DNA from: Eubacterium sp.
Lineage (GTDB): Bacteria > Bacillota > Clostridia > Oscillospirales > Acutalibacteraceae
DNA length: 64,000 nt
NCBI GenBank assembly: GCA_022511225.1
Contig: JAFLRZ010000002.1
Location: forward strand, 1 to 64,000
Reading direction: 5' to 3'
In this document: in pieces, positions 1 through 41,257 of the stretch
How positions within the stretch are numbered: position 1 is the stretch's first letter
Layout of the letters: each line of letters starts with the position of its first letter
Notes under the pieces: generated by a model
The model's input: only the letters and a program-made list of their open reading frames with translations
Told to the model about the DNA's origin: nothing
Databases searched by the model: none
Program-made: the position numbers and the translations under genes

Positions 1-399
1 TTAGTTATGGGAATTGCCGCAATCGGTTCAGCAATCGGTATCGGTATTGCAGGTCAGGCATCAATAGGCTCATGGAAGAAGTGCTATATGAATAATAAAG
101 CAGCTCCTTTCATCCTTACCGTATTTGCCGGTGCGCCTCTTACACAGACAATTTACGGATTCCTTTTGATGCAACAGATGAAAGGGTCTGATGCTGACCC
201 TGCATTTTTAATTGGCCTTGGAATTGCCTCCGGTGTGGCTATGGCACTTTCAGCTGTTTTTCAGGGCAAGGCAGGTGCTGCCGGTGCGGATGCATTAGCT
301 GAAACAGGAAAGGGCTTCTCACAGTACATCACCGTTGTCGGACTTTGCGAAACCGTTGCACTCTTTGCTCTCGTTTTCAGCATGGTGGCATTGGGATAA
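1..399 (+). CDS. ntpK: V-type ATP synthase subunit K (proteolipid), 5' end cut by window
   Basis: This is the membrane rotor proteolipid of a V-type Na+/H+-translocating ATPase. The visible 130 residues hold the end of the first hairpin (Gly-rich GSAIGIGIAGQAS) and a complete second hairpin. The second hairpin contains the ion-binding glutamate in VVGLCETVALF. V-type K subunits are double-hairpin proteins of about 155-160 residues, so roughly 25-30 N-terminal residues are missing. The frame is open to base 1, so the ATG at 7 is probably internal. It is the last readable gene of an ATPase operon and is followed by a strong terminator. Whether it carries Na+ or H+ cannot be settled from the sequence. 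Confidence 0.9.
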   Translation, partial: LVMGIAAIGSAIGIGIAGQASIGSWKKCYMNNKAAPFILTVFAGAPLTQTIYGFLLMQQMKGSDADPAFLIGLGIASGVAMALSAVFQGKAGAAGADALAETGKGFSQYITVVGLCETVALFALVFSMVALG

Positions 400-421
400 A
401 TAAAAATAAATAATTATCGAC

Positions 422-460
422 TAAAAAGGAAGGAACTCAGTGTTCTTTCCTTTTTTTATT
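422..460 (+). terminator. Rho-independent terminator after the V-ATPase gene
   Basis: An AAGGAAGGAAC / GTTCTTTCCTT stem with a 5-base loop is followed by a run of T. It separates the ATPase operon from pilus locus A. Confidence 0.85.
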
Positions 461-5982: not shown

Positions 5983-6036
5983 TATCCTGTATATCAGCTT
6001 CATATATAAACAAAACCAACTAAAAGGAGATTCGAG

Positions 6037-7779: not shown

Positions 7780-7812
7780 TCTTTAAACTATTTGATTTAA
7801 CGTAAAATCATT

Positions 7813-7847
7813 ATCCGTCAGGGCAGAAATGCTCTGCCCTGACGGAT
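7813..7847 (+). other. Strong intercistronic hairpin without T-tract
   Basis: A perfect 14-bp inverted repeat (7813-7826 with 7834-7847) has a 7-base loop. It lies between the stop of the backbone pilin and the sortase gene. No T run follows, so it is unlikely to be a simple terminator. An mRNA-stabilising or partial-attenuation role that lifts pilin over sortase is inferred. Confidence 0.7.
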
Positions 7848-7878
7848 ACGGCAACAGGGAGGGCCCTAATTACCACTT

Positions 7879-8784
7879 ATGAAGACAAAAAAAACGAATG
7901 GTAAAAGACGATGGGTCACGGCTTGTCTTGTTCTGATTTTGCTTTTAGGACTTTCCCTGATGCTGTATCCAACAGTCGCTGATTATGTAAACTCGCTTGA
8001 AAATCGCAGGCATATAAATGAGTACGAGGAAGCAGTAACTCAAATGAATGTCGATGATCGTGAGCAGTTATTCGAAGAAGCGTATGCCTTTAATGCTTCG
8101 CTTTTAGAAAGAACCACACCGTATATGACAACTCTCAACGATGAGCAAAGAGAGGTATATAATAGCCTTTTAAATATTGCAAACACCGAAATTATGGGGT
8201 ATATTGATATTCCTAAGGTAAATATCCACTTGCCCATATATCACGGAACGAGTGAGGCTGTGCTCCAGCAAGGTGTAGGTCATTACGAAGGTTCTTCCCT
8301 TCCCGTCGGCGGTGAGGGTGTTCACACGGTCCTTTCGGGACATACGGGGCTCCCTTCATCCAAGCTCTTTACAGATATACGCGAGCTTGAAGTCGGTGAC
8401 ACGTTTACACTACATATTTTCAGCAAGGATTTGACTTATGAGGTGGAAAACGTTGACGTCGTTCTGCCAAAGGAGCTTGAGAAGATACAGATAGAACCTG
8501 ATAAGGATCTTTGTACGCTGTTCACCTGTACTCCGTATGGAGTTAACACGCATCGACTCGTAGTGCGAGCTCACAGGATTATGGTGGAAAACGTTGAAGA
8601 TCAACCACAGAACAACAATATTCTCTCGTTCTTAAGTGACGACGGTGAGCCGATAAACAGAGCTATAATTATTCCGATTGCTGCTGTTCTCGGAATCGTT
8701 GTTACTATATTGATAATCAGATTCAGTAAGCGTTCTAAATCAGATTCAAACCGTTCAAAAGGCGGAAATGATACCCAGACATAA
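7879..8784 (+). CDS. Class C (pilus-polymerising) sortase
   Basis: A membrane transpeptidase expected to join LPXTG-type pilins through a pilin lysine. An N-terminal transmembrane helix (about 12-32) and a C-terminal helix (about 255-280) bracket the catalytic domain, as is usual for class C. Catalytic residues are H155 (SGHTG), C217 (TLFTC) and R226 (HRLVV). The region where most class C enzymes keep an Asp-Pro-aromatic lid reads T80-P81-Y82, so the lid Asp appears to be missing. The ribosome site is poor: GGGAGG is about 16 bases from the ATG. That, with the hairpin upstream, suggests lower expression than the pilin. Confidence 0.93.
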   Translation: MKTKKTNGKRRWVTACLVLILLLGLSLMLYPTVADYVNSLENRRHINEYEEAVTQMNVDDREQLFEEAYAFNASLLERTTPYMTTLNDEQREVYNSLLNIANTEIMGYIDIPKVNIHLPIYHGTSEAVLQQGVGHYEGSSLPVGGEGVHTVLSGHTGLPSSKLFTDIRELEVGDTFTLHIFSKDLTYEVENVDVVLPKELEKIQIEPDKDLCTLFTCTPYGVNTHRLVVRAHRIMVENVEDQPQNNNILSFLSDDGEPINRAIIIPIAAVLGIVVTILIIRFSKRSKSDSNRSKGGNDTQT

Positions 8785-8825
8785 AATAATTCAATTCTAT
8801 GAATTAGAAAGGTGGCGCATTAGGT

Positions 8826-9773
8826 ATGAAAAAATGCGGTTATTTTAAGAAGTTTATATTTTTGATGAGCTTGGTAGTAGCTTTTATTCTGCCATCAACT
8901 GTACTTGCTGCTTCACAGGGCTCTATACACGTTCATTTTTATCACGAAAATGAAGCGATTTCCGACGCTGTGTTTAGTGCTTATCGTGTTGCAGATTTTA
9001 CAGAGGATGGAGAATACGTTCCAACCGAAGCTTTTTCGTCTTATGCGATTTCGTGGAAGGATCTTGATCTTGAAACCGCAAGCGAGCTTGGGTCTACCCT
9101 TTCCGCTTACGTTTCTCGAGATAATATAGCTGCGGACGCTCAGGGCAAAACCGATGAAAACGGTGATGTATACTTAAAGGATTTGCCGGCAGGTATCTAT
9201 CTTGTGATAGGCGATGCAGTTACCGTGGTGAATTCGTCTGTTGAGGATACAATTTATTTTCCGCAGCCTGCCGTTGTTCACGTGCCCGACTGGGATGAAA
9301 ACGGTATGCATATCAGTGATGACGTTACTATCGAGCCAAAAAGCGATTTCACAAAAGTAGACAAGTCGATTGAACGAAAAGCCCTGAAAATCTGGAAAAA
9401 TGACAGTAGTGAAAATCGTCCGAGCGAGATTACTGTTCAGCTCTTGAAAAATGGTGAGATTTACGATGAACAGACCTTAACAGCAGAAGACAACTGGAGA
9501 TATACTTGGAGCAATCTTGATCCCGAATGCAGATGGGAAATGATTGAAAAGGACGTACCTGACGGATATACTGCTACAGTAAGCCAACAGGGTGTTACTT
9601 TCACTCTCACAAATACTTACGGTGACCCAAGTTCGCAGAATACAACACCTGACAAAAATCTGCCAAATACTGGTGTGTTATGGTGGCCTGTTCCTGTACT
9701 CCTTGGCTTAGGCGCAGTTCTTTGCATTGTGGGTATCAAATATAAGAAAAACAGCAAGGAATCATATGAATAA
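8826..9773 (+). CDS. Minor/anchoring pilin with CnaB domain (LPNTG)
   Basis: A 315-residue surface protein. It has a signal peptide (about 1-28) and an N-terminal SpaA/prealbumin-like domain (to about 170, ending in VVHVPDWDENG). A CnaB domain (about 185-272) starts RKALKIWKND and has a TFTLTNTY end strand. The sorting signal is LPNTG (279-283), with a membrane segment and a KYKKN tail. This matches the basal or minor pilins that accompany a class C sortase. The stop overlaps the start of the next sortase gene by 8 bases, implying translational coupling. Basal versus ancillary position in the shaft is not decidable here. Confidence 0.87.
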   Translation: MKKCGYFKKFIFLMSLVVAFILPSTVLAASQGSIHVHFYHENEAISDAVFSAYRVADFTEDGEYVPTEAFSSYAISWKDLDLETASELGSTLSAYVSRDNIAADAQGKTDENGDVYLKDLPAGIYLVIGDAVTVVNSSVEDTIYFPQPAVVHVPDWDENGMHISDDVTIEPKSDFTKVDKSIERKALKIWKNDSSENRPSEITVQLLKNGEIYDEQTLTAEDNWRYTWSNLDPECRWEMIEKDVPDGYTATVSQQGVTFTLTNTYGDPSSQNTTPDKNLPNTGVLWWPVPVLLGLGAVLCIVGIKYKKNSKESYE

Positions 9774-10368
9774 ACGAACGTTAAGCACCTTTCTTGTCGG
9801 ATGCGGAATACTCCTGATTTTAGCATCAGCAGCCTTGGTAGGATATAATATTTGGGATGATATCAGGGCAAGAAACGAAGCTGACAGCGTTTTGAGTCAG
9901 CTTGGAGAGCTTACTCTGTCCCCTGACGCTCAGGCTATTCCTGATTATATTCTGAATCCTGAAATGGATATGCCCACCGTTGAGATTGACGGGTATCGGT
10001 ATATCGGAACTGTATCAGCTTCTTCAATAGGTCTTGAGCTGCCTGTTATGGAAACGTGGGATTACACACGTATGACTATAGCACCATGTAGATACAGTGG
10101 CTCAGCCTATCTTAACAATATGATTATCTGCGGACATAATTATGTCTCTCATCTCGGTAGTTTAAGGAATCTTAAAATCGGCGATACCGTAACTTTTACG
10201 GACGTTGACGGAAACGTGTTCAACTACGAGGTTGTGCAAAAGGAAACCCTGTCTGCAACAGCAGTTGAGGAAATGCAAAGCGGCGAGTGGGATTTAACCC
10301 TATTCACCTGTACTGTCGGCGGACAGACTCGTGTAACCGTGCGCTGTATGTTAAAGAAAAATTATTAA
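9766..10368 (+). CDS. Small accessory sortase of pilus locus A
   Basis: A 200-residue sortase with one N-terminal membrane helix and no C-terminal helix. Catalytic residues are H124 (ICGHN), C182 (TLFTC) and R189 (TRVTV). The start is placed at the ATG at 9766 because AAGGA lies five bases upstream; an upstream in-frame ATG at 9727 lacks this site. It may be the housekeeping-like enzyme that attaches the finished pilus to the wall, or may act on the minor pilin only. The class is uncertain; the compact build and absent C-terminal helix are closer to class D/A than C. It is the last gene of locus A. Confidence 0.88.
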   Translation: MNKRTLSTFLVGCGILLILASAALVGYNIWDDIRARNEADSVLSQLGELTLSPDAQAIPDYILNPEMDMPTVEIDGYRYIGTVSASSIGLELPVMETWDYTRMTIAPCRYSGSAYLNNMIICGHNYVSHLGSLRNLKIGDTVTFTDVDGNVFNYEVVQKETLSATAVEEMQSGEWDLTLFTCTVGGQTRVTVRCMLKKNY

Positions 10369-10370
10369 GC

Positions 10371-10407
10371 AATAGATGTGACAAGAAAATGTTGTCACAT
10401 CTATTTT
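10371..10407 (+). terminator. Terminator of pilus locus A
   Basis: A 13-14 bp perfect stem (ATAGATGTGACAA and its complement) with a 7-base loop ends in TTTT. It closes the locus A transcript. Confidence 0.85.
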
Positions 10408-10478
10408 CATTTCCACATCATATCTGTTTCCTATTCACCATATTAATTATATTTAAATTTAATTAAAAGTTTATATTT

Positions 10479-10567
10479 GTCTATTTATAAAGTGTTGACT
10501 TTTATTATAGATATATTATAATAAAAAATATATAATAAATAGACTAATATATACTAAATAGACTAAT
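10479..10567 (+). promoter_or_regulatory. Promoter and repeat elements of pilus locus B
   Basis: TTGACT (10495-10500), a 16-base spacer and TATAAT (10517-10522) give a strong promoter with a leader of about 120 bases. A 13-base direct repeat, TAAATAGACTAAT, occurs at 10536-10548 and 10555-10567. Its first nine bases occur inverted at 10479-10487, upstream of the -35. Three copies flanking one promoter look like sites for a DNA-binding regulator; this is inference. Confidence 0.7.
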
Positions 10568-10648
10568 TACGATACAGAATGTATTGAAACATCATTTGAT
10601 TTAACGATTTAATTTTACGCTTATTCACTGTCCGAAGGAGACCGCATT

Positions 10649-13525
10649 ATGAAGAGAAGGATTTTGAGCTTGGTGCTGACGTTGTCAGTGTTCCTGTCTA
10701 TGCTCCCTGTTGGAGGAGCAATAGCAGCAACAACAGACGACAACGAAGCTGCTGCCCTCAGCATATTTGCTGCGGGTGACGGCACTGCTTCTGCGCCTTA
10801 TGAAATCCCTAATCTTCAAGCAATGTTGGACTTCTGTGACTATATAAACACAGACGCGAAACACGGATTCGGAATGTATTTTAAGCTAACCGACGACATT
10901 GATCTTAACGGAAACGAAAATAACCAATGGACGCCGATCGGAAACACCAAGTATCCTTTCGCCGGCACATTTGACGGTGGTGAGCACAAGGTCTCAGGCT
11001 TGTATATCAATAGAAACGAAGACTATCAGGGCTTGTTTGGATATATTACTGAGGGTACTGTTAAAAATCTCACAGTGAAAGGTACGATTTTTGCGGGCGG
11101 AAATGTGGGCGGCATCGCCGGTACCATTTATCCGAACAGCACCAACGGACGTATTGAAAACTGCAAGTTTGAAGGGGATATCGGTGAAAACGGCAGCGGT
11201 TCCAATATGGCTATCGGCGGTATCGTGGGGCGTAATCACGGCGCTACAGTAACCGGCTGCCACTTCACAGGCACGGTAACTCGAAAGACCATGTATGTTG
11301 GCGGCATTGCGGGGCAAAACGATGGCAGTAATACAGTAGTAGAAAATTGCTACAATGAAGGAACAATCTCTATTTCCGGAGGCGCGGCTGGTTCTGCCGG
11401 CGGCATTGCAGGCATCATTACCTCCAACGTTCAGATCATAAACTGCCGCAACAGCGGTACAGTGAATGGTGCGGGGAGTACTGGCGCAATCGGTGGAATC
11501 ACAGGTACAAATAATAGCGGCAAGCTGGAGCAATGCTATAATGACGGGTCGATTGATGGTGTTGATTCCAGCACTGTTGGCGGCATTGCGGGACAAAATC
11601 TCGGAGGTACGATTGACGGGTGTTACAACATCGGCACAATAACGGGCAAAAACCAGATCGCTGGCATTTCAGGACAAAATAACACTAAAGGTGCGATTTC
11701 TGAGTGCTACAACGCCGGCGCAGTAACGGGCACAGATCAGATCGGTGGTATTGTGGGGCAAAACTACGGCAACGCTACGGTCACAAACTGCTATAATGAA
11801 GCTGCTGTCACAGGTACAAGATACATAGGTGGTATTGTAGCACAGAATCACACCGGAACTACCAGCAAGAGTACTACTGTCGGCAAAGTTATAAACTGCT
11901 ACAATAGAGGCACGATTAAAGGCAGCTCTGTCGGTGGTGTTGTTGGTGTTAACGGCAACAACTACGGGACCGGTACAGTCTCAAACTGCTATTACCTTTC
12001 ATCATCTGCAGTAGGCGGTATCGGAGGCAGCGATAAAGCAGCTCAGGCAGAGAGTAAAACAGAAGAGTGTTTTAACTCGGGTGAAGTATCATGGAAGCTT
12101 CAGAATCCTGAAAAAGTAAGCTCAACCTATTCACCGCAAAGCAAGCTTGTCTGGGTACAAGAGATTGTAAAAACACCGAAAGACCCATATCCGCTTTTGC
12201 TTAATACCGACATCGGTGCAGGGCACCCCAAGGTTCTGAGAATTACCTTTACTACAACAAAAAACAGCGAATATGCTGTTGAATATACAAACAGCGGCGG
12301 TACAGTTCCGATACCCCCTACCCCTCCTCCGGACTTTGGTTTTCTTTTCTTTGGATGGCGAAAAGAAACTATAACCGGTGAAGTATTCACAGGACCTGTT
12401 AAGGAAAATAACGATTTAACCATCGTTGCCATACAGCGTGAAACCTTTGGCGCTGAAGATCCTAATACCACGGTTATTACCACAACCTACGGCAATAGTG
12501 TCCAAAAGGATTTGGGTGAATGGGTATCATACATAAGCGGCACAACTTCGTCGCACGGCAAATTTACGTATACAATCACAAATAACGGCGGTATTAGCTC
12601 TGCCACACTTGTGGATGAAAGTATCCTTACAATACCGGCAGGAACCAATGCAGGTGTCTATACCTTAACTATTAGTGCTCACGAAAAAGATCCGGAGGTC
12701 TCACTGCTTTCAATCGGTAGTTACGGTACAAGTGACGTTACATTAACTGTAAAGGTTATTGTCGAAAAAGCTGATTTAACCTCAGATATGTTTACATACA
12801 AGCCTCCGGATGACCTGAGCTGTAACGGTGAGCCTAAGGTGGCAACAGTTACCTTGAATGATGGCTACATCGGTGTAGGCGACACGATTCAGATTAAGTA
12901 TTACAAAGACGGCAGCAATGAACCGCTTGAATCCCCACCCACTGAGGAAGGAAAATACATCGTTAAGATAGACGTTAACGAGGGTATTAACTATAAAAGT
13001 GCAGTAGACTTGACGGATATTGGCTGGGAATTTGAAATAGTCAATTCTGCAGGCGGACTGACCGTAAGCACGATAGTTACGGGTAACGCAGGTGATAAGG
13101 ATAAAGAATTTACTTTCACCGTAGTATTGTCCGACGATACGATTAACGGCAAGTTCGGCGATATGGAATTTACAAACGGCGTCGCAACGTTTACGCTAAA
13201 GCACGGTGAGAGCATAAGTGCTTCAGACCTGTCGGATTCAATCACGTACACGATAACTGAGTCAGATAACGACGGCTATGCAGTTAAAATAGAAGGCTCG
13301 TCCATAGACAATAACGAAGCCTCGCAAAGCGGAAACGGGCAGTGTGTCGGAAGAATAATAAGCAACTCAACGGCACAGCTTAATTTCGTAAACAATCGTA
13401 ATCTCAGCGTTCCTACGGACGCTACAACAGAATATGACTGGCTGATTCCTCTGTTTATGATGATTGGCACAGGCGCAATATTCTTAACTCTTAAGCGACT
13501 TAAGACGTCACGTCAAAGGAGGTAA
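10649..13525 (+). CDS. GLUG-repeat surface adhesin of locus B
   Basis: A 958-residue secreted protein. After a signal peptide (about 1-26) it has an insert of GLUG-type repeats (about 60-470). About ten units are built on GGIAGQN / CYNxG, predicting a right-handed beta-solenoid. An InlB/Listeria-Bacteroides-like repeat follows (about 530-590), then Ig-like domains, then an FctA-like domain (about 805-915, LKHGES core). The C-terminus has a membrane helix and a KRLKTSRQRR tail preceded by VPTDA (921-925). VPTDA sits where the FctA-type VPTG motif is expected but lacks the glycine. As first gene of locus B it is inferred to be the tip or ancillary adhesin. The ribosome site is AAGGAG. Confidence 0.85.
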   Translation: MKRRILSLVLTLSVFLSMLPVGGAIAATTDDNEAAALSIFAAGDGTASAPYEIPNLQAMLDFCDYINTDAKHGFGMYFKLTDDIDLNGNENNQWTPIGNTKYPFAGTFDGGEHKVSGLYINRNEDYQGLFGYITEGTVKNLTVKGTIFAGGNVGGIAGTIYPNSTNGRIENCKFEGDIGENGSGSNMAIGGIVGRNHGATVTGCHFTGTVTRKTMYVGGIAGQNDGSNTVVENCYNEGTISISGGAAGSAGGIAGIITSNVQIINCRNSGTVNGAGSTGAIGGITGTNNSGKLEQCYNDGSIDGVDSSTVGGIAGQNLGGTIDGCYNIGTITGKNQIAGISGQNNTKGAISECYNAGAVTGTDQIGGIVGQNYGNATVTNCYNEAAVTGTRYIGGIVAQNHTGTTSKSTTVGKVINCYNRGTIKGSSVGGVVGVNGNNYGTGTVSNCYYLSSSAVGGIGGSDKAAQAESKTEECFNSGEVSWKLQNPEKVSSTYSPQSKLVWVQEIVKTPKDPYPLLLNTDIGAGHPKVLRITFTTTKNSEYAVEYTNSGGTVPIPPTPPPDFGFLFFGWRKETITGEVFTGPVKENNDLTIVAIQRETFGAEDPNTTVITTTYGNSVQKDLGEWVSYISGTTSSHGKFTYTITNNGGISSATLVDESILTIPAGTNAGVYTLTISAHEKDPEVSLLSIGSYGTSDVTLTVKVIVEKADLTSDMFTYKPPDDLSCNGEPKVATVTLNDGYIGVGDTIQIKYYKDGSNEPLESPPTEEGKYIVKIDVNEGINYKSAVDLTDIGWEFEIVNSAGGLTVSTIVTGNAGDKDKEFTFTVVLSDDTINGKFGDMEFTNGVATFTLKHGESISASDLSDSITYTITESDNDGYAVKIEGSSIDNNEASQSGNGQCVGRIISNSTAQLNFVNNRNLSVPTDATTEYDWLIPLFMMIGTGAIFLTLKRLKTSRQRR

Positions 13526-13532
13526 TACTCCT
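13517..13532 (+). promoter_or_regulatory. Ribosome site folded into a small hairpin before the SipA-like gene
   Basis: AGGAG (13517-13521), part of an ideal AAAGGAGGT site overlapping the previous stop, can pair with CTCCT (13528-13532) across six bases just before the ATG at 13535. It may throttle initiation unless upstream ribosomes open it. Confidence 0.45.
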
Positions 13533-13534
13533 CT

Positions 13535-14080
13535 ATGAATAATAACAATAATGATGTGACCGAAAAACAGCCAAATCAAAAGCCTGATAATAGGAAAACA
13601 GCAAAAAAAGCAGCTTTGCATCTTTTAATAAAGCTTGCAGTGATTGCATTGATTATCAGCTTGACACTGGTTTTTATATTTGGCGTATTTCGCTTAGGCG
13701 GTAACAATATGTACCCGGCGCTGAAAGACGGCGACTTGTGTGTTACGTATAAGCTTGGCGAATACCATAGCGATGATGTTGTAGCATATCGGATAGACGA
13801 TGAAATTCGATTTGGACGCATCATTGCAAGAGCCGGAGATACTATAGACGGAGACGAGCAAGGCATATTGCTAAACGGCTCGTACCTGAGTGAAGAGGTC
13901 TTTTATCCCACTCAGATAGTTGATACTCAACTAAATCTGCCTTATACCTTGAGTGAGGGCGAGTTTGTAGTGCTCAATGACTACCGCTCCGATCAGAGCG
14001 ACAGTCGTACGTACGGCGTAATAAATAAAAAAGCGCTGAAAGGAAAAGTAATATTTATATTCCGACGGCGTGGATTTTAA
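13535..14080 (+). CDS. SipA-like signal peptidase homologue lacking the Ser/Lys dyad
   Basis: A 181-residue type I signal peptidase-fold protein with an Asn/Lys-rich cytoplasmic start and one membrane helix (about 32-53). The conserved Ser-Met-x-Pro box reads N57-N58-M59-Y60-P61, with Asn at the nucleophile position. The Lys-Arg-hydrophobic box reads G94-R95-I96-I97, with Gly at the general-base position; the following Ala-Gly-Asp is kept. Known of the family: in streptococcal FCT pilus loci SipA also lacks Ser and Lys and is needed for pilus assembly rather than peptide cleavage. Its place beside an FctA-like pilin and class B sortase matches that. A chaperone-like assembly role is inferred. 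Confidence 0.88.
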   Translation: MNNNNNDVTEKQPNQKPDNRKTAKKAALHLLIKLAVIALIISLTLVFIFGVFRLGGNNMYPALKDGDLCVTYKLGEYHSDDVVAYRIDDEIRFGRIIARAGDTIDGDEQGILLNGSYLSEEVFYPTQIVDTQLNLPYTLSEGEFVVLNDYRSDQSDSRTYGVINKKALKGKVIFIFRRRGF

Positions 14081-14162
14081 TTTCTTTATTACAGGTTAAC
14101 AAATCTGTTAAAATATAAAATAAATAAGGCTATCAGCCAAAAATTGAAAGGAGTTCATAGTT

Positions 14163-15278
14163 ATGAACAAGAAGTTATCAAAAATTTTTGCAGTAGCACT
14201 TGCACTTGTTATGTGTTTTGCTATGGCAATGCCTGCATTCGCAGCGACTCAGGCAAGTACAGCCGGAAGCGGCTCTATTACTGTAAGCAAAAACCTCATT
14301 ATGAATAGTGATGCAGGTGTACCGGAAGCAACCTTCAGCTTTACATTGGAAGCATATAAGGGCGACAATACATATCCGCTTTTTGACGGCATTATGAACG
14401 GCGTTGGTTCTAACTACACCGTTTCATTTAGCGATGCTTCAGTTGTAACTAACGGTCTGCCAAGTGATACTAATGGCACAACTACAGACGGTAAGAAATA
14501 CGCAACAGAAACTTTCACCGTTGATTTTACAGGTGTAGATTTCACAGAGGCCGGTGTATACCGTTATGTTATTACCGAAAATTCTGTTGACTCACCATAC
14601 AATATTTCAAGCACAAATCCTCAGTATATCGATGTATACGTAGAGTATGCACAGCAGACTGACGGCAGTTATGCAACTGATCTTACAATTCAGGGCGTAT
14701 TTATGCATACAGACAGTTCAGCTGTTCTTGACCCAACAGTTACTCCTGTAAAGAGCAGTAGCTTTGACAATATGTACACAACATATGACTTAACCGTTGG
14801 TATGAACGTTTCAGGCAACCAGGCTGATAAGGAAGATTATTTCACATTCACACTTACTGTAAACAGTCCTGTTAACGATTCATATGCTATTGACGTTACT
14901 AATGCTACAAGCAACTCAGCAATTACTTTGGACGTTGTTGGCGGTGAAGGTACTGTAAACTTCGACCTTAAGCACGGCGAGAGTGTTTTAGTTAAGGGAC
15001 TTCCTGTAGGAACAACATATACTATCACAGATGCAAGCGGTACTTACACAGCAACTTACGTTGTTACTGAAAATGGTACAGTATTAGTTTCTGACGGTTC
15101 AGGCGATTCATATGTAAATAGTGACGGTATTAAAGGCGACACCACAGTTACATTCACAAACACTCGTGGCGGTGTTATTCCAACAGGTGTCATTCTTACA
15201 GTTGCTCCGTTTGCAGCTCTTATGCTTGTAGGTATTGCAGGTGCAACAGTTATTCTTAAGAAAAAGAGATCTATGTAA
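14163..15278 (+). CDS. FctA-like backbone pilin (IPTGV signal)
   Basis: A 371-residue pilin with a signal peptide (about 1-28, AFAAT). The N-terminal Spy0128/FctA-type domain (about 35-200) contains the glutamate of an intramolecular isopeptide bond in YRYVITE (E139). A second beta domain (about 205-335) has the LKHGES core also present in the locus B adhesin and the locus A tip. The sorting signal VIPTGV (338-343) differs from LPXTG and resembles the VPTG signals used by streptococcal class B pilus sortases. A membrane helix and KKKRS tail follow. The ribosome site is AAAGGAG. It is probably the shaft subunit of locus B, assembled by the sortase 22 bases downstream. Confidence 0.9.
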   Translation: MNKKLSKIFAVALALVMCFAMAMPAFAATQASTAGSGSITVSKNLIMNSDAGVPEATFSFTLEAYKGDNTYPLFDGIMNGVGSNYTVSFSDASVVTNGLPSDTNGTTTDGKKYATETFTVDFTGVDFTEAGVYRYVITENSVDSPYNISSTNPQYIDVYVEYAQQTDGSYATDLTIQGVFMHTDSSAVLDPTVTPVKSSSFDNMYTTYDLTVGMNVSGNQADKEDYFTFTLTVNSPVNDSYAIDVTNATSNSAITLDVVGGEGTVNFDLKHGESVLVKGLPVGTTYTITDASGTYTATYVVTENGTVLVSDGSGDSYVNSDGIKGDTTVTFTNTRGGVIPTGVILTVAPFAALMLVGIAGATVILKKKRSM

Positions 15279-15300
15279 TTAAATTTCGGAGGAGGAGCAG

Positions 15301-16002
15301 ATGGTTAAAGTAATAAATTACATAGACCGTGCAACAGACTCTCTGCTGCTACTGTTCTTTCTCCTCCTGTTTCTTATCGGTGGGTATACTATGTACGATA
15401 CCGTACTCGTATATAACCTTGCTGATGGTGACGAATTTAGAAGTTTCCGCCCCGCCGTTGTTGACGAGGAGCACGGCTGGGATATGAGTGCCTTGTCTGA
15501 AGACGTTGTCGCTTGGCTCACTGTTGACGATACTAATATTGACTATCCCGTGCTTCAGGGTAGCGATAACACCGAGTATCTCAACAAGGACCCATTCGGA
15601 AAGTATTCCCTGTCGGGAAGCATATTCCTTGATGCGAGAAATGCACGTGATTTTTCCGATTCATATTCCCTGATTTACGGGCATCATATGGAATTCGGAA
15701 AGATGTTCGGTGCGCTTGATAAGTTTTTAGATGAGGATTATTTCGATACTCATCGTACGGGAACACTCACTGTATCTAACAAAGTGTATTCCGTAAAGTT
15801 CTTCGCGTGTCTTGAGGCAGATGCTTCAGTTGACGAAATATTTGACTCTACCGAAGCTAAAGTCGCACTTAAATATGTAAAAGAACATGCTCCCATATTG
15901 CGTGAGCCTGAGGGCGATAAGCTCATTGCCCTATCCACTTGTAAATTTCCGCAGACAACAGAGCGGATAGTTGTGTTTGGAGTATTAAAAGATGAACAGT
16001 AA
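15301..16002 (+). CDS. Class B sortase, pilus-assembly type
   Basis: A 233-residue transpeptidase with one N-terminal membrane helix (about 14-36). The class B hallmarks are the WLTVDDTNIDYPVLQG segment, catalytic H128 in YGHHM, C214 in LSTC and R222 in ERIVVFG. Class B enzymes of FCT pilus loci polymerise pilins with VPTG-type rather than LPXTG signals. The adjacent IPTGV pilin is therefore the likely substrate. The ribosome site GGAGGAGGAG is unusually strong. The gene overlaps the start of the next by 11 bases. A haem-related class B role is less likely given the neighbours. Confidence 0.9.
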   Translation: MVKVINYIDRATDSLLLLFFLLLFLIGGYTMYDTVLVYNLADGDEFRSFRPAVVDEEHGWDMSALSEDVVAWLTVDDTNIDYPVLQGSDNTEYLNKDPFGKYSLSGSIFLDARNARDFSDSYSLIYGHHMEFGKMFGALDKFLDEDYFDTHRTGTLTVSNKVYSVKFFACLEADASVDEIFDSTEAKVALKYVKEHAPILREPEGDKLIALSTCKFPQTTERIVVFGVLKDEQ

Positions 16003-16642
16003 AAAGTTAATATCTATGATTTCTCTGTTTATTTTCCTGCTAAGTATGCCGATATGGGCATTTGCTATGGAAAGTACGACAGCAGAGATTTTCTTTAAGG
16101 TCAATAATGCTCCGGGAACAGTTATTGTGGAGGCAGTGGATGACGCACCTTTGCCGGAGCAGACGATATTTAATGACGTATCAACGGGTAAGTTTGATGT
16201 ATCTATATCTCAGCCCGGTGATTACTACTACAAAATTTATCAGAATAAGGGAACTCAGCAGGATGTCAATTACGACAATACAGTTTTCGTAGCACGCATA
16301 ACTGCTCTTGTAGATGAAAATAACAACCTGTATTCAGCAGTAACAGTATACGTAGAAAAGAGTTCTCAAAAGATTGGAAATATAGAGTTTAAAAACACTC
16401 TTATAGAGCCTGAAAAAGATATATCAGGATCCGAAACCAATCCAACGGAATATGAAGACATTTCGGAAGATCCAATCAAAACGACTACGGCTGATTCTTC
16501 AGCTGAAGAACCGCATACAGGAGATGAAAGTCATTTAGGCTTGTGGCTTGCGATGATGGCAGTATCTCTCGTCGGTATCGCTTTAGCAAACGTTTTCTAT
16601 AAAGTGTTTTCTGGAAAATCTGATAAGAAGAATTCTAATTAA
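15992..16642 (+). CDS. Small FctA/FctB-like surface protein (EPHTGD signal)
   Basis: A 216-residue secreted protein with a signal peptide (about 1-26). One Spy0128-like beta domain (about 28-135) has GDYYYKIYQ in the place of the pilin E-box region. An acidic Thr/Ser linker follows, then EPHTGD (173-178), a membrane helix and a GKSDKKN tail. The motif is a degenerate PxTG signal, different from the IPTGV of the backbone pilin, so it may be anchored by a housekeeping sortase. Overlap with the sortase gene implies coupling. It probably forms the base of the locus B pilus; that role is inferred from FctB of streptococci. Confidence 0.8.
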   Translation: MNSKKLISMISLFIFLLSMPIWAFAMESTTAEIFFKVNNAPGTVIVEAVDDAPLPEQTIFNDVSTGKFDVSISQPGDYYYKIYQNKGTQQDVNYDNTVFVARITALVDENNNLYSAVTVYVEKSSQKIGNIEFKNTLIEPEKDISGSETNPTEYEDISEDPIKTTTADSSAEEPHTGDESHLGLWLAMMAVSLVGIALANVFYKVFSGKSDKKNSN

Positions 16643-37478: not shown

Positions 37479-38441
37479 ATGAATAAATTGATTTCTGTAA
37501 TCGTACCTGTTTACAAGACTGAAAAATATATCGGCAGATGTGTAGAAAGTCTTGTAAATCAGACGTATAAGAACATCGAAATACTGCTTGTTGATGACGG
37601 TTCACCCGACAACTCCCCTGCTCTTTGCGATGAATGGGCAAAAAAAGACAGCAGAATTAAGACCTTTCACAAAAAGAACAACGGTGTTGCTGCTGCAAGG
37701 CAGTTCGGTGTAGCCGAAGCGACAGGCGAATATATTATGTTTGTTGACAGTGACGACTGGGTAAGAGAGGATACGTGCGAATATCTGATTTCGCTGATAA
37801 ACCGTGGTGATTATCAGGTTGCCTGCTGCTCATATTGCCTTACAAAAGATAATGCAGAGCCGTCTGAAACAGACAATGAAATCATCACAGAACTTGATTT
37901 TAACGGCATTATAAAGGGACTTTATGACTATTATCTGTGGTCAATGTGCTTTAAGCTTTTCAAAAAAGAACTGTTTGAAAAAGCTGAAATCCCTGAAATA
38001 ACGCTGACAGTCAGCGAGGATTTGCTTACGAATTTCTACGTTTTCAGGCAATGTGACAGTATTATTGTTTCAAACAAGGAAAAATATTTGTATTTCAGGC
38101 ACAGCGGTTCTGTTATGACTAAAATGACAATGAAAAGGATAACAGACCAGCTAAGTGCATACAAAGCAATCTGCGATATGCTTGACGAGGGCACTCCGGC
38201 ACATTGCTACAGTATGGCAAATCGACTTATTAATGACTTTCAGCTTGTAAACAGCGTAATTAATAAAGGTGAAAGTGCAGAGCTTTCCGCCCCTCTTATC
38301 AGTGATATAAAAGAGTGCAAAAAATATATTTTCAAAAAAGAAAATAATTACTGTATGGGAACAAAATATCAAATTGCGTACCTGCTCCTTATGAATTTCC
38401 CTAAGCTTTACGGCTTATTGATAAAGATAATCGGAAAATAA
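37479..38441 (+). CDS. Glycosyltransferase family 2
   Basis: A 320-residue GT2 (GT-A fold) transferase. The start ISVIVPVYKTEKYIGRCVESLVNQTYKNIEILLVDDGSPDNS is diagnostic, and the DXD-type metal site is VDSDDW near residue 93. The ATG at 37479 (with AAAGGA upstream) is preferred to an in-frame ATG at 37320 inside the methyltransferase gene. It begins one base after the preceding stop. It probably adds a sugar in capsule, wall or exopolysaccharide assembly together with the DUF1919 protein. Donor and acceptor are unknown. There are no membrane helices. Confidence 0.88.
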   Translation: MNKLISVIVPVYKTEKYIGRCVESLVNQTYKNIEILLVDDGSPDNSPALCDEWAKKDSRIKTFHKKNNGVAAARQFGVAEATGEYIMFVDSDDWVREDTCEYLISLINRGDYQVACCSYCLTKDNAEPSETDNEIITELDFNGIIKGLYDYYLWSMCFKLFKKELFEKAEIPEITLTVSEDLLTNFYVFRQCDSIIVSNKEKYLYFRHSGSVMTKMTMKRITDQLSAYKAICDMLDEGTPAHCYSMANRLINDFQLVNSVINKGESAELSAPLISDIKECKKYIFKKENNYCMGTKYQIAYLLLMNFPKLYGLLIKIIGK

Positions 38442-38448
38442 CATTAAC

Positions 38449-38487
38449 AAAAAAACAGCTTGAATTCGATGTTCAAGCTGTTTTTTG
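38449..38487. terminator. Bidirectional terminator between the GT2 and alpha-toroid genes
   Basis: A CAGCTTGAA / TTCAAGCTG stem flanked by A and T runs serves both the rightward GT2 gene and the leftward cobalamin-locus operon. Confidence 0.88.
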
Positions 38488-38546
38488 ATGGGCAATACTA
38501 CAAGCGTACAATGACACTTCTGTTTTGCTTTATAAAAACAAATAGA

Positions 38547-39686
38547 TTATCTGCTTTCCTTTTTCTTTGCGGTGATTACTGCAAAGGCTGCTGTGCAGAA
38601 AGCTATGCCAAAAGCTGCACCAAAAATATTGTCACCGGTTGCAGGTGACTTTTTCTCTGCATTTGTCTTTTCTGTTGTTTCCTTTTCGGTCTTATCAATC
38701 TGAGATGTGGTTTCTTCTTTTGACGGTTTAGTGGTTTCTTCAAAATCATAATCGTCTAAACCGTTAAACAACTCATCAATAGCTACAACAATGTAGTAAA
38801 GAGAAATTCCGCGAAGTGCGTCTGCCGTGGCAAAAGCATTGTCGCCGTCATTCATATAAGTATAAACACCTACTGATGATCCCTTGAAGCTCGTCAAAGC
38901 ATTATAAGCGCTATCACAGGCTTCCTTGATTTCGTCATTATCTTCATCACTGCTGAAATAAGCTGAGCACAGAGCCATAAGTGCAAGTGCCGTTGAGTCA
39001 GCATTTGGCTCAGTGCCGTACTCTCTGTTATAGCAATATCCGCCGTCAACCTTATAAGTTTCAAGAACTGCAAGGCAATCAGAAATCACCTCTTCATAAT
39101 CAAAGCTATACGTTGAAAGAGCTGTTATAAGATATGCAGTATTATCACAGCCTAAGCCGTAATAGTTCATACCGTTGCCCTTTTCATAATAATTTTCAAT
39201 CAAAGTATCACAAAGTGTTTTACCGAAGCTTTCATCTTCAACAAAAATTGATGCAGGAATGATTACGTTGTATTCATACGGCGAAGCAGGAAGCACTGTA
39301 GGATCCATCTTGCTGAAGTTATCAAGCAGAGTAGAAAACGTGTCGTCATCTTCAATGTCAACATACATCATTATCTGAATTGCAGCTGCATACGCAGTAA
39401 GTGTTTCGCCGTTGCTTGTAACGAGCTTTCCATCGTTTGCACTGAGATTTTCCTTAACTGCAGTGGCGAAAGAATCAACATTATTAACCTCTGCACCTGA
39501 GCTTACGAGATAATAAAGCTCTAAAGCGTCATCAACTGTGTATGACTCTTTTGAAAGGTAATCGACAGCACCCTGAAGCTCTGCCATAAGCTCGTCTGAC
39601 GTAACCTTTTTGTCCTCGGCAAGCGCAGTAATGCCTGTGCTCATAACAAGGCAAACCGCAATAATAACAGCAATAATTTTTTTCAT
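38547..39686 (-). CDS. Wall-anchored alpha-toroid protein, intrinsic-factor-like domain
   Basis: A 379-residue exported protein with a signal peptide (about 1-24). It then has a helical repeat domain (about 30-310) with the terpenoid-cyclase/prenyltransferase toroid pattern: repeated ALALMALCSAYF, DNTAYLITALSTY and NAFATADALRGISLYY helices. This is the fold of the alpha domain of intrinsic factor and transcobalamin. A Thr/Glu/Lys linker follows, then SPATGD, a membrane helix and AKKKESR, a sortase signal. The start has AGGAGG. It is co-transcribed with the DUF4430 lipoprotein under a cobalamin riboswitch. It is therefore inferred to form half of a surface corrinoid-binding site; direct enzyme activity is unlikely. 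Confidence 0.85.
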   Translation of the reverse strand: MKKIIAVIIAVCLVMSTGITALAEDKKVTSDELMAELQGAVDYLSKESYTVDDALELYYLVSSGAEVNNVDSFATAVKENLSANDGKLVTSNGETLTAYAAAIQIMMYVDIEDDDTFSTLLDNFSKMDPTVLPASPYEYNVIIPASIFVEDESFGKTLCDTLIENYYEKGNGMNYYGLGCDNTAYLITALSTYSFDYEEVISDCLAVLETYKVDGGYCYNREYGTEPNADSTALALMALCSAYFSSDEDNDEIKEACDSAYNALTSFKGSSVGVYTYMNDGDNAFATADALRGISLYYIVVAIDELFNGLDDYDFEETTKPSKEETTSQIDKTEKETTEKTNAEKKSPATGDNIFGAAFGIAFCTAAFAVITAKKKESR

Positions 39687-39703
39687 TTTTGTCCTCCTAA
39701 AAA

Positions 39704-40420
39704 TCAATATTTACAAACGAAGCTGAATTCAATACAGTCTCCGTCTTTAATAACGTATTTATCACAGCTTTGCCAGATGGATTTTGAATTTACAGTGTAT
39801 GTCCATCCGCTCTGACTTCCGCAGTCTTTTTCATCAATATTGTTAAAGCCTAAAATGTACTTACCGTAAGCACTGCTTTTAACGCTAATCGTAACACCCT
39901 GTTTGTCACAAGCAGTTTTCAGTGCATCATATGCGGTACTACCGTTCTTAACTGTAACGCTCGTACTGCTCATTATAACCCCGTCAGACGGAACAAAGCT
40001 CTCGTGCCCTGACTTAAGATCATCCATATTATCAAGAATGCTTTTACATTCAACAGCTACGGTGCAGGTAACAGTTGACGAAGTGGTGGTCTGCTTTTGG
40101 GTTGCAGATTTTTTAGTAGTAGTTGTGGTAGATTTAGTTGTCGATTTCCTTTTGGTTGTTGCCTGAATTGTAGTTTTTGCGGTACTGCTTGTACTTTGCG
40201 TTGTGCTTTTTGACGTAGTGCTTTTTTGCTCGGATTTTTTAGTCGTTGATTTATTTTGGGTATCATCAGCTAAAGTGCCTGTAAGTTCACTAACTGTTGT
40301 ATTTTTTGTTGTGCTTTCTGATATAGACGTGCCTGTAATGTTTGCAGGAGAATCTGCACTGCATCCGAAGAAAGTAAAGCATATAATAAAGCTTAATAGA
40401 ATAACTGTAAATTTTTTCAT
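39704..40420 (-). CDS. DUF4430 lipoprotein, transcobalamin beta-domain-like
   Basis: A 238-residue lipoprotein. The signal peptide ends at a lipobox-like FFGC (C about 20), with an unusual Phe at -3. A very Thr/Ser/Lys-rich stalk (about 25-120) leads to a DUF4430 domain (about 125-238; GSTAYDALKTACDKQGV...SGWTYTVNSK...KDGDCIEFSFV). DUF4430 corresponds to the C-terminal cobalamin-contacting domain of transcobalamins. The ATG at 40420 is preceded by AGGGG, which lies in the riboswitch expression-platform stem. It is 17 bases from the alpha-toroid gene. Probable role: membrane-tethered partner in corrinoid capture. Confidence 0.87.
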   Translation of the reverse strand: MKKFTVILLSFIICFTFFGCSADSPANITGTSISESTTKNTTVSELTGTLADDTQNKSTTKKSEQKSTTSKSTTQSTSSTAKTTIQATTKRKSTTKSTTTTTKKSATQKQTTTSSTVTCTVAVECKSILDNMDDLKSGHESFVPSDGVIMSSTSVTVKNGSTAYDALKTACDKQGVTISVKSSAYGKYILGFNNIDEKDCGSQSGWTYTVNSKSIWQSCDKYVIKDGDCIEFSFVCKY

Positions 40421-40428
40421 AAAAAATA

Positions 40429-40448
40429 CCCCTGCCATTTGGACAGGG
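40429..40448 (-). promoter_or_regulatory. Expression-platform hairpin of the cobalamin riboswitch
   Basis: On the minus strand CCCTG(T)CC-AAAT-GGCAGGG is followed by GTATTTTTT and then the ATG. The stem contains the only ribosome site (AGGGG) and precedes a T run. It could therefore block translation, end transcription, or both, when cobalamin is bound. Confidence 0.65.
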
Positions 40449-40507
40449 ATATAGAAGGACTTTTAAAATCCATTGCTTTTCCACTTGCCCAAAAGCTGAA
40501 TTTGTTT

Positions 40508-40680
40508 GCACGGCAGGTATCCCGACTTGTGATATAGTGCACTAATTAATACACGTACAAATACGCCTTCTCAGTTTCCCAATGGCAAATGTATTTGTTT
40601 CATCAGATACGGTAATGGCGGTTGCTTGAGATTCGCACTCAATTCCCTTTTAATTTCGGCATTACACCAAAAGACCGTTA
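40508..40680 (-). promoter_or_regulatory. Cobalamin riboswitch
   Basis: Read on the minus strand, the leader has the ordered conserved elements of the cobalamin aptamer. These are GGTGTAATGCC, AAAAGGGAATTGAGTGCGAA, TCTCAAGCAACCGCC, GCCATTGGGAAACTGAGAAGGC and the B12 box AAGTCGGGATACCTGCC (40512-40528). It starts a few bases from the predicted transcript start and ends upstream of the expression-platform hairpin. Such elements switch genes off when cellular cobalamin is high. It controls the DUF4430 lipoprotein and alpha-toroid genes, tying both to corrinoid acquisition. Confidence 0.93.
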
Positions 40681-40693
40681 ATACTATGCTTTT

Positions 40694-40721
40694 AGTATAC
40701 CATTAAAACTAAATTTGTCAA
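40694..40721 (-). promoter_or_regulatory. Promoter of the cobalamin-riboswitch operon
   Basis: On the minus strand TTGACA (40721-40716), a 16-base spacer and TATACT (40699-40694) form a near-perfect promoter. The -35 overlaps the stop codon of hpt, so the riboswitch operon is transcribed separately from hpt. Confidence 0.82.
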
Positions 40722-41257
40722 CTATTATATATTTCTTCTTTAAGAACACCTATGTACGGAAGATTTCTGTAAAACTGATCATAGTCGAGGCCGTAGCCTA
40801 CTACAAATTCGTTAGGCACGTCAACACCGACGTAATCTGCACTTATATCGGCAACTCGTCTTGCAGGCTTGTCAAGAAGTGTGATAATAGAAATTGAGTT
40901 GGCGTTTCGATTTGAAAGCATATCTACTATATGCTTAAGCGTTCTTCCCGTATCAAGAATATCCTCAACAAGAAGCACGTCAAAGCCAGTTAAATCATCA
41001 GCTACGTCCTTGATGATTTTGATATTATTGCTTGAAACAGTACCCGAGCCGTAGCTTGATGCCTGAATAAAATCAATAGTGCACGGCAAATCTATGTACC
41101 TTGACAAATCTGTTAAAAAATATATTGACCCCTTAAGAACGCCTATAACAAGCAGTTTCTTGCCTGCAAAATCCCTTGTTATCTGCTCACCAAGCTTTTT
41201 TGCAATAGCACTAAGCTCTTCCTCGGTAACTAAAATGCGCTCTATATCCTCGTGCAT
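40718..41257 (-). CDS. hpt: Hypoxanthine phosphoribosyltransferase
   Basis: A 179-residue cytosolic purine-salvage enzyme converting hypoxanthine or guanine plus PRPP to IMP or GMP. The PRPP-binding loop VLLVEDILDTGRTL (about 97-110) and the flexible-loop SYGSGT are standard, as is GVLKGSIYFLTDL for pyrophosphate binding. The length is normal for the family. It ends inside the promoter of the cobalamin operon. It follows rlmH by about 30 bases and probably ends that operon. No terminator separates it clearly from the next promoter. Confidence 0.95.
   Translation of the reverse strand: MHEDIERILVTEEELSAIAKKLGEQITRDFAGKKLLVIGVLKGSIYFLTDLSRYIDLPCTIDFIQASSYGSGTVSSNNIKIIKDVADDLTGFDVLLVEDILDTGRTLKHIVDMLSNRNANSISIITLLDKPARRVADISADYVGVDVPNEFVVGYGLDYDQFYRNLPYIGVLKEEIYNS

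Follow-up and report, generated by a model that had tools for sequence, protein, structure and literature searches.

A cobalamin-riboswitch operon for a DUF4430 lipoprotein and a sortase-type toroid protein, a candidate B12 capture module in Acutalibacteraceae

Capture of vitamin B12 by toroid and beta-grasp proteins at the surface of Gram-positive bacteria was anticipated by Burroughs et al. (2007), who defined a transcobalamin-like clade of SLBB domains in these organisms (PMC1796856). The sections of that paper considered here describe fusions of this clade to toroids, its signal peptides and Gram-positive anchors, and its operons with CbiO/CbiQ-like genes; they propose a role in B12 scavenging and suggest that the animal carriers were acquired from such bacterial proteins. 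Complexes among the different extracellular SLBB proteins encoded by an operon are suggested as well, and a propeller fusion is mentioned; riboswitches appear nowhere in these sections. For energy-coupling factor (ECF) transporters, the part of Santos et al. (2018) used here names the membrane S component as the substrate binder (PMC5997447). Here we analyze a 64,000-nucleotide stretch of Eubacterium sp. (Acutalibacteraceae; positions 1 to 64,000 of contig JAFLRZ010000002.1, assembly GCA_022511225.1), referred to as the window, in which a cobalamin riboswitch precedes two minus-strand genes, one for a DUF4430 lipoprotein (P0002) and one for an alpha/alpha-toroid protein with a sortase-type C terminus (P0001). 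We propose that the pair is a B12-repressed surface capture module serving an ECF-type B12 importer, and we consider B12-regulated capture linked to uptake likely (probability about 0.7). Within this proposal, we infer the identity of the ligand, its clamping or hand-over, its delivery to the ECF transporter and the direction of the switch.

The riboswitch unit and its two products

The minus strand from 40721 to 38450 holds a single compact transcription unit with the following features.

40694..40721, minus strand: sigma-70-type promoter, TTGACA-16-TATACT with TG before the -10 element (consensus scan, 11/12 matches)
40495..40694, minus strand: cobalamin riboswitch aptamer, RF00174 (cmscan, model positions 1-189 of 189)
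40426..40452, minus strand: expression platform, a terminator-like 11-pair hairpin with a T run (terminator scan)
39704..40420, minus strand: gene 1, P0002, 238 amino acids, with an FFGC lipobox, a Ser/Thr/Lys-rich stalk of ~85 residues and a C-terminal DUF4430 beta-grasp domain
39719..39943, minus strand: DUF4430 domain of P0002 (profile search of genomes, 50.9 bits)
39693..39698, minus strand: ribosome-binding site of gene 2, AGGAGG, inside the gap after gene 1 (sequence)
38547..39686, minus strand: gene 2, P0001, a secreted alpha/alpha-toroid protein of 379 amino acids with a sortase-type C terminus
38757..39596, minus strand: alpha/alpha-toroid domain, residues ~31-310 of P0001 (helices of the AlphaFold model)
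38634..38648, minus strand: SPATG sortase-type motif, followed by a hydrophobic segment and KKKESR (sequence)
38450..38486, minus strand: intrinsic terminator after gene 2, a stem with a T run (fold z -5.3 for 38430-38560)

The initial annotation, made from the DNA letters alone, had described a clear cobalamin riboswitch with its own promoter controlling just two genes, and this description held throughout. The RF00174 covariance model matched over its full length at 88.2 bits (gathering score, 31.5) and is the sole Rfam match above its gathering score in the window as well as the one RF00174 match in the whole genome. TTGACA-16-TATACT is the top-ranked promoter-like site of the scanned region, 38300-41000, and its end meets the start of the riboswitch match; the coordinates given for the two-gene unit are correct, and the unit is closed by a 15-pair terminator. 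The same scan counted 14 promoter-like sites against a shuffle mean of 7.3, and 6 terminator-like sites against 2.0. Since such sites exceed the shuffle counts, the rank and position of a promoter or terminator are informative, not its presence alone.

The hairpin between the aptamer and gene 1 ends a few bases 5′ of the gene 1 ATG and includes AGGGG, the ribosome-binding stretch of that gene. In the minimum-energy fold (z -2.0), its 3′ arm, GGCAGGGG, pairs alternatively with ACCUGCC at the 3′ end of the aptamer. This alternative pairing suggests an OFF switch in which the bound ligand would free the hairpin. Because the terminator and the ribosome-binding site overlap, the riboswitch would permit both transcription and translation of the operon when cobalamin is low. 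Riboswitches of this class usually sense adenosylcobalamin. Gene 2 begins 17 nucleotides past the stop codon of gene 1.

P0002 had been called a DUF4430 lipoprotein. It matches DUF4430 (PF14478) with E 8.8e-13 and 49.0 bits (Pfam cut-off, 23.8) and has a candidate lipobox cysteine. This cysteine (FFGC) is invariant across 12 aligned proteins; the Phe residues at -3 and -2 depart from the usual lipobox consensus. The best PDB sequence match of P0002 is transcobalamin-2, below significance (E 0.024; 0.061 by profile). A PDB profile search with full-length DUF4430 proteins was uninformative, the low-complexity stalks dominating its matches.

We assign the alpha/alpha-toroid fold to P0001 from an AlphaFold model and from homology to other toroids. 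The model has a predicted local distance difference test score (pLDDT) of 83.8, a predicted template modelling score (pTM) of 0.84 and 12 helices of at least 6 residues. A profile of 69 toroids from related loci, built with P0001 excluded, found P0001 at E 5.9e-9 and reported 0 of 500 shuffled copies, and a profile of the P0001 family compared with the 69-toroid profile, with no sequence shared between them, gave 99.2% over 230 columns. Judged by its sequence, P0001 is a member of the riboswitch-locus toroid family and represents a divergent branch of it. Iterated toroid profiles, which include P0001, were used solely for labelling genes. A Pfam scan placed P0001 in no family at cut-off.

Several observations weigh against a strict reading of P0001 as one half of a transcobalamin-like trap. 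PF01122 (Cobalamin_bind) is not among its Pfam families up to E 1, it retains 18 of the 57 columns that at least 85% of the 69 relatives conserve, and the nearest solved folds of its model are terpene cyclases and other toroids. Transcobalamin is not among the best 50 rows of the structure search, which is no proof of absence, and a PDB profile search with a five-row P0001 alignment gave nothing useful. What makes us cautious over a clamp formed by P0001 and P0002 is chiefly the divergence of P0001; by analogy with the animal carriers, a cobalamin-dependent clamp by the two is plausible. The two-part B12 trap that the initial annotation had predicted is supported as to the riboswitch, the two-gene unit, both fold types and the separate anchoring signals; the divergence of P0001 and the missing PF01122 match count against it when it is read strictly.

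The fold matches bear on another reading, in which the toroid is an enzyme of the terpene-cyclase or sugar-active type, or an adhesin, that shares the operon by chance. The best matches of the P0001 model do include terpene cyclases, sugar-active enzymes and epimerases, but P0001 lacks DXDD, the terpene cyclase motif, for which reason it was rejected as a terpene cyclase, and its strong sequence divergence, its wall anchoring signals and the conserved linkage of the toroid to the B12 riboswitch and DUF4430 (see below) all speak against this reading, which we regard as extremely unlikely. P0001 was also rejected as a thioester complement-like protein because it lacks GCGEQ, the motif of such proteins.

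The operon family in related genomes

The linkage between the riboswitch and DUF4430 was examined in 150 genomes of the same family, our own included, in which the DUF4430 places are those listed (at least 150). DUF4430 occurs in 112 of the 150 genomes and in 2 of 14 control genomes, and a cobalamin riboswitch in 94 of the 150 and in 8 of the 14. Among the 107 listed riboswitches, five of which score under the Rfam cut-off, 62 have a DUF4430 match within 5 kb downstream on the same strand, where chance would give ~0.13, and 65 have a listed match within 8 kb. Elsewhere within 8 kb, no riboswitch has a listed match upstream on its own strand, while on the opposite strand 2 have one upstream and 0 have one downstream; for 41 of the 107, no listed DUF4430 match lies within 8 kb on either side. 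The gene order was read from hand-picked, non-random loci (20 from the family, 20 from the genus and 12 with a short DUF4430 protein). The order common in the 20 family loci is riboswitch, anchored toroid or propeller, DUF4430 lipoprotein, EcfT, double EcfA and ECF S component.

Named genomes were searched with the conserved stretch E[KF]DCGxxSGW, which gave at least 597 matches; 594 were confirmed, and the best 80 loci were kept. They represent Oscillospiraceae, other Clostridia, Paenibacillus and additional groups. The initial annotation had proposed to look for the pair in other Clostridia, and it was found together in many other Clostridia and Bacilli. Because the 80 loci are those that scored best against an operon-derived query (12 DUF4430 sequences, mostly from riboswitch/ECF operons), they are no random sample, and the fractions given here characterize operons of this kind and not DUF4430 genes in general. 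The usual operon consists of riboswitch, toroid, DUF4430 and ECF transporter. By six-frame profile search, a toroid is present in 72 of the 80 loci, as a separate frame in 55 and solely fused to DUF4430 in 17; five loci have a propeller without a toroid, and three, all short stretches, have neither (L081, L089 and L147). EcfT lies on the same stretch and strand in 75 of the 80, and an S component was found in 69. An earlier count on length-filtered open reading frames was lower (toroid 67, EcfT 66, propeller only 4, neither 9), and its figure of 74 for "EcfA or S" is unused, the ATPase profile picking up unrelated ABC proteins too. A riboswitch was detected in at least 49 of the 80 loci (nhmmer, E 1e-3 or better), with 53 of 53 hits on the operon strand. 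Of the 31 remaining loci, 22 have their first operon gene less than 600 bases from the start of the fetched stretch, and cmscan on nine of the 31 detected RF00174 in three (two on the operon strand, one on the other).

The divergent branch to which P0001 belongs is typical of the genus, where 51 of 60 genomes, our own included, have a P0001 match. RF00174 was found in 18 of the 20 genus loci (cmscan, 13/15 plus 5/5). Seven resemble the window, with riboswitch, DUF4430 lipoprotein and SPxTG toroid (L160-L165 and L168); two have the same DUF4430 and toroid pair with no riboswitch detected (L166 and L167); and in five, DUF4430 lies next to the riboswitch, on the opposite strand (L172, L174, L176, L177 and L178), the toroid of L176 being unlabelled by the profile yet found with P0001. 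A further four contain one chain of 720-759 amino acids (L169, L170, L171 and L179). These chains, together with that of L064, were not counted as proven fusions, the match of their N-terminal domain to DUF4430 being weak (hhalign, 37%). The last two, L173 and L175, have a toroid with no DUF4430 labelled nearby.

Some DUF4430 loci have a PQQ-type beta-propeller in place of the toroid (L053, L054, L056, L057, L058, L061, L074, L075, L095 and L150; Pfam scans were made for L053, L054, L057 and L074), most of them with riboswitch and ECF genes. We also noticed a second unit, composed of a cobalamin riboswitch, a short DUF4430 protein (~140-235 amino acids as called) and a small membrane protein of 166-180 amino acids, in 8 of the 12 sampled short-DUF4430 loci (L187, L188, L190, L191, L192, L193, L195 and L197). 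The membrane protein, six examples of which gave no Pfam match when scanned, is perhaps an S component.

These variants bear on whether the toroid takes part in binding at all. The DUF4430 lipoprotein alone might serve the ECF importer as its B12 receptor, and the toroid might have another task at the surface, for instance fixing the receptor to the wall, removing B12 from a carrier or binding some other compound. This would suit the many same-family riboswitches that precede a short DUF4430 protein, 32 of the 65 lying within 500 nucleotides, and the 12 sampled short-DUF4430 loci, none of which has a labelled toroid while in eight the next gene encodes the 166-180-residue membrane protein, with a weak S-component profile match in five of the eight. 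The operons in which the partner is a beta-propeller, and the loss of most conserved columns in P0001, point the same way. Against it, the toroid recurs in 72 of 80 DUF4430 loci and shares one chain with DUF4430 in several, and in L173 and L175 it stands under a riboswitch with no DUF4430 seen nearby. We consider DUF4430 acting alone unlikely, and retain a capture module in which both proteins take part.

Anchoring, single-chain forms and a candidate importer

The initial annotation had the two proteins tethered separately, to membrane and wall, and separate anchoring signals are indeed seen, a candidate lipobox in P0002 and a sortase-type end in P0001. Scored against PF00746, the P0001 C terminus reaches 11.8 bits (cut-off, 20), with SPATG, the hydrophobic segment and KKKESR in place; the genome has six sortase matches above cut-off. 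The long Thr-rich stalks ascribed to both proteins are borne out for P0002, where the stalk of ~85 residues is Ser/Thr-rich by eye, and not for P0001, where it measures ~35 residues and is Thr/Glu/Lys-rich. In 14 of the 20 genus loci, the toroid protein has an SPxTG motif among its last 60 residues, and 13 of the 20 family loci have an LPXTG-like end by eye. S-layer homology (SLH) domains, which hold proteins to the wall, occur in 39 of the 48 separate toroid proteins scanned from the named loci; in the exceptions, the protein terminates with a dockerin, an Fn3 domain or a membrane segment. Of 77 DUF4430 partners from the named loci, classified by a simple hydropathy rule, 59 have an N-terminal membrane segment without a lipobox, 15 a lipobox and 3 neither. 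Because a wall-held body and a membrane-held cap thus recur with different anchors, we argue that the layering matters. On the plus strand of the window, 634-16642 holds a cluster of large surface proteins with three sortase genes (matches at 8203-8577, 10021-10350 and 15517-15987), which looks like a pilus or adhesin locus.

Natural single chains, toroid then DUF4430, also exist. The model of one of them, L115 (456 residues; pLDDT 82.0, pTM 0.67), aligns across both domains, among the best 50 PDB rows, with just human intrinsic factor and transcobalamins; these alignments span 338 to 351 residues within 1..446 of the model, and the other rows end by residue 314. The root-mean-square deviation is near 11 Å, so the predicted orientation of the L115 domains differs from that in the animal carriers. 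In L063 (4382-6265), one chain of 627 amino acids consists of a toroid, two membrane segments (by eye) and DUF4430; since the membrane segments lie between them, this form would tether its two domains separately.

The operon of the pair in this genome includes no transporter genes, and none of the seven window-like genus loci has a labelled ECF gene in the 6-10 kb that were fetched. On this account the pair might hoard B12 on the cell exterior, either as a store or to deny it to competitors, uncoupled from import. The 75 of 80 named loci with EcfT on the same stretch and strand count against this, as does an ECF module that fits them on contig C8 of the own genome (2.23 Mb, 98.65% complete), and we hold such hoarding to be very unlikely. 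Three EcfT-like places were found in this genome. The one on C8, just below the CbiQ cut-off, has a double ATPase and an S component beside it and matches the EcfT profile of the named loci at 3.5e-69 and 229 bits, the other two at 52 and 20, and the S component matches its profile at E 1.4e-60. No riboswitch is near the C8 module. FecCD, the BtuC-type permease, has no match above cut-off in the genome, with one sub-threshold match at 17.9 bits. In this organism, then, the genes for capture and those for import seem to lie apart. The initial annotation was incomplete in this respect, as it did not include the candidate ECF importer elsewhere in the genome; nor did it recognize how widespread the operon family is, or the 2007 prediction by Burroughs et al. 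(PMC1796856).

The genome encodes one protein with a B12-binding domain, of 770 amino acids (L073:4446-6758, contig C28), which matches the methionine synthase model TIGR02082 from 42 to 857 of 1182 with 469.5 bits, below the full-length cut-off, and adjoins methylenetetrahydrofolate reductase. Ending at model position 857, this MetH-type enzyme is without the C-terminal reactivation part, which a neighbor of 185 amino acids (L073:3902-4459; no NCBIfam match at E 1e-20) might supply. MetE and CbiC gave no match in the genome; nor did PduO-type adenosyltransferase, BtuR not being included in that search. An enzyme of the MetH type requires a complete cobamide; its presence, with CbiC not found, argues against the ligand being a corrinoid precursor such as cobinamide, or cobalt, in place of cobalamin. 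Nor was a CbiM/CbiN-type gene noticed among the open reading frames viewed at the C8 locus, where no profile search for these genes was made. Such a ligand would accord with the EcfT matches to the CbiQ family, whose Pfam name is cobalt transport protein, and with the wording of Burroughs et al. in the sections considered here, B12 or its precursors (PMC1796856); we judge it distinctly unlikely.

Expression of the operon would yield the membrane DUF4430 beta-grasp lipoprotein and the wall sortase-type alpha-toroid at the same time. In intrinsic factor and transcobalamin, a toroid and a beta-grasp domain hold one cobalamin between them; wall toroid and membrane cap might by analogy sandwich one corrinoid, or the toroid might pass it to the cap. 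The cap would then deliver the corrinoid to the S component of the ECF transporter, which is encoded here on C8 and, for most of the 80 named loci, within the operon itself. In its most general form, we tentatively suggest, at somewhat short of even odds, a Bacillota-wide, B12-repressed split trap in which a wall body (toroid or propeller) and a membrane DUF4430 cap are joined by the corrinoid and feed an ECF transporter. If true, a vitamin importer of the ECF type would possess an external receptor in two parts, and bacteria a counterpart of intrinsic factor.

Comparison with known B12 capture systems

The core idea of B12 scavenging by bacterial toroid and beta-grasp proteins was already predicted in 2007 and is not new. 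New here are the riboswitch link at scale, the split between wall toroid and membrane cap, the propeller swap in some operons and the proposed coupling of external receptors to an ECF importer. We found no report in the open-licence literature that ties DUF4430 to bacterial B12 uptake; in the DUF4430 literature of this kind, cobalamin appears in the title or abstract just for work on vertebrate B12 binders. A survey of human gut genomes, in the portion drawn on here, reports known B12 transporters for almost half of its B12-auxotroph variants and counts the identification of B12 transport systems in numerous gut genomes as an open problem (PMC6593275). The genes of the pair, which are common, often under B12 riboswitches and carry the uninformative family name DUF4430, are direct candidates for gut B12 uptake. 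Should they bind B12, they would give an ECF transporter with an external receptor and support the 2007 proposal on the descent of the animal B12 carriers.

The animal proteins intrinsic factor, transcobalamin and haptocorrin combine an alpha/alpha-toroid with a beta-grasp domain, and the single chain L115 matches both domains. The window differs in having two genes 17 nucleotides apart on two anchors instead of one chain; P0001 has no PF01122 match, the sequence identity is very low and corrinoid binding is here a prediction. The SLBB proteins of Burroughs et al. are alike in combining toroid and SLBB, in being secreted or anchored, in their CbiO/CbiQ-like operons and in the proposed B12 scavenging; the architectures in section 7 of that paper, among the parts considered here, are toroid-SLBB fusions, whereas the window encodes a lipoprotein cap and a separate sortase-type toroid (PMC1796856). 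The ECF B12 transporters CbrT (PMC5997447) and CbrUVT (PMC6593275), as described in the portions of those papers used here, share with the operons of relatives and with C8 the genes for EcfT, EcfA and an S component. Unlike in those systems, external proteins are here linked to the S component. BtuG of Bacteroides is a beta-propeller, whereas P0001 is an alpha/alpha toroid by its model and P0002 a DUF4430 protein; the propeller partners in some DUF4430 loci recall BtuG in fold. BtuG likewise captures B12 at the surface ahead of a membrane transporter but, in the parts of the reports considered here, belongs to a Gram-negative outer-membrane system with BtuB (PMC6143338, PMC10404256), and is thus an analogue of the present module in purpose only.

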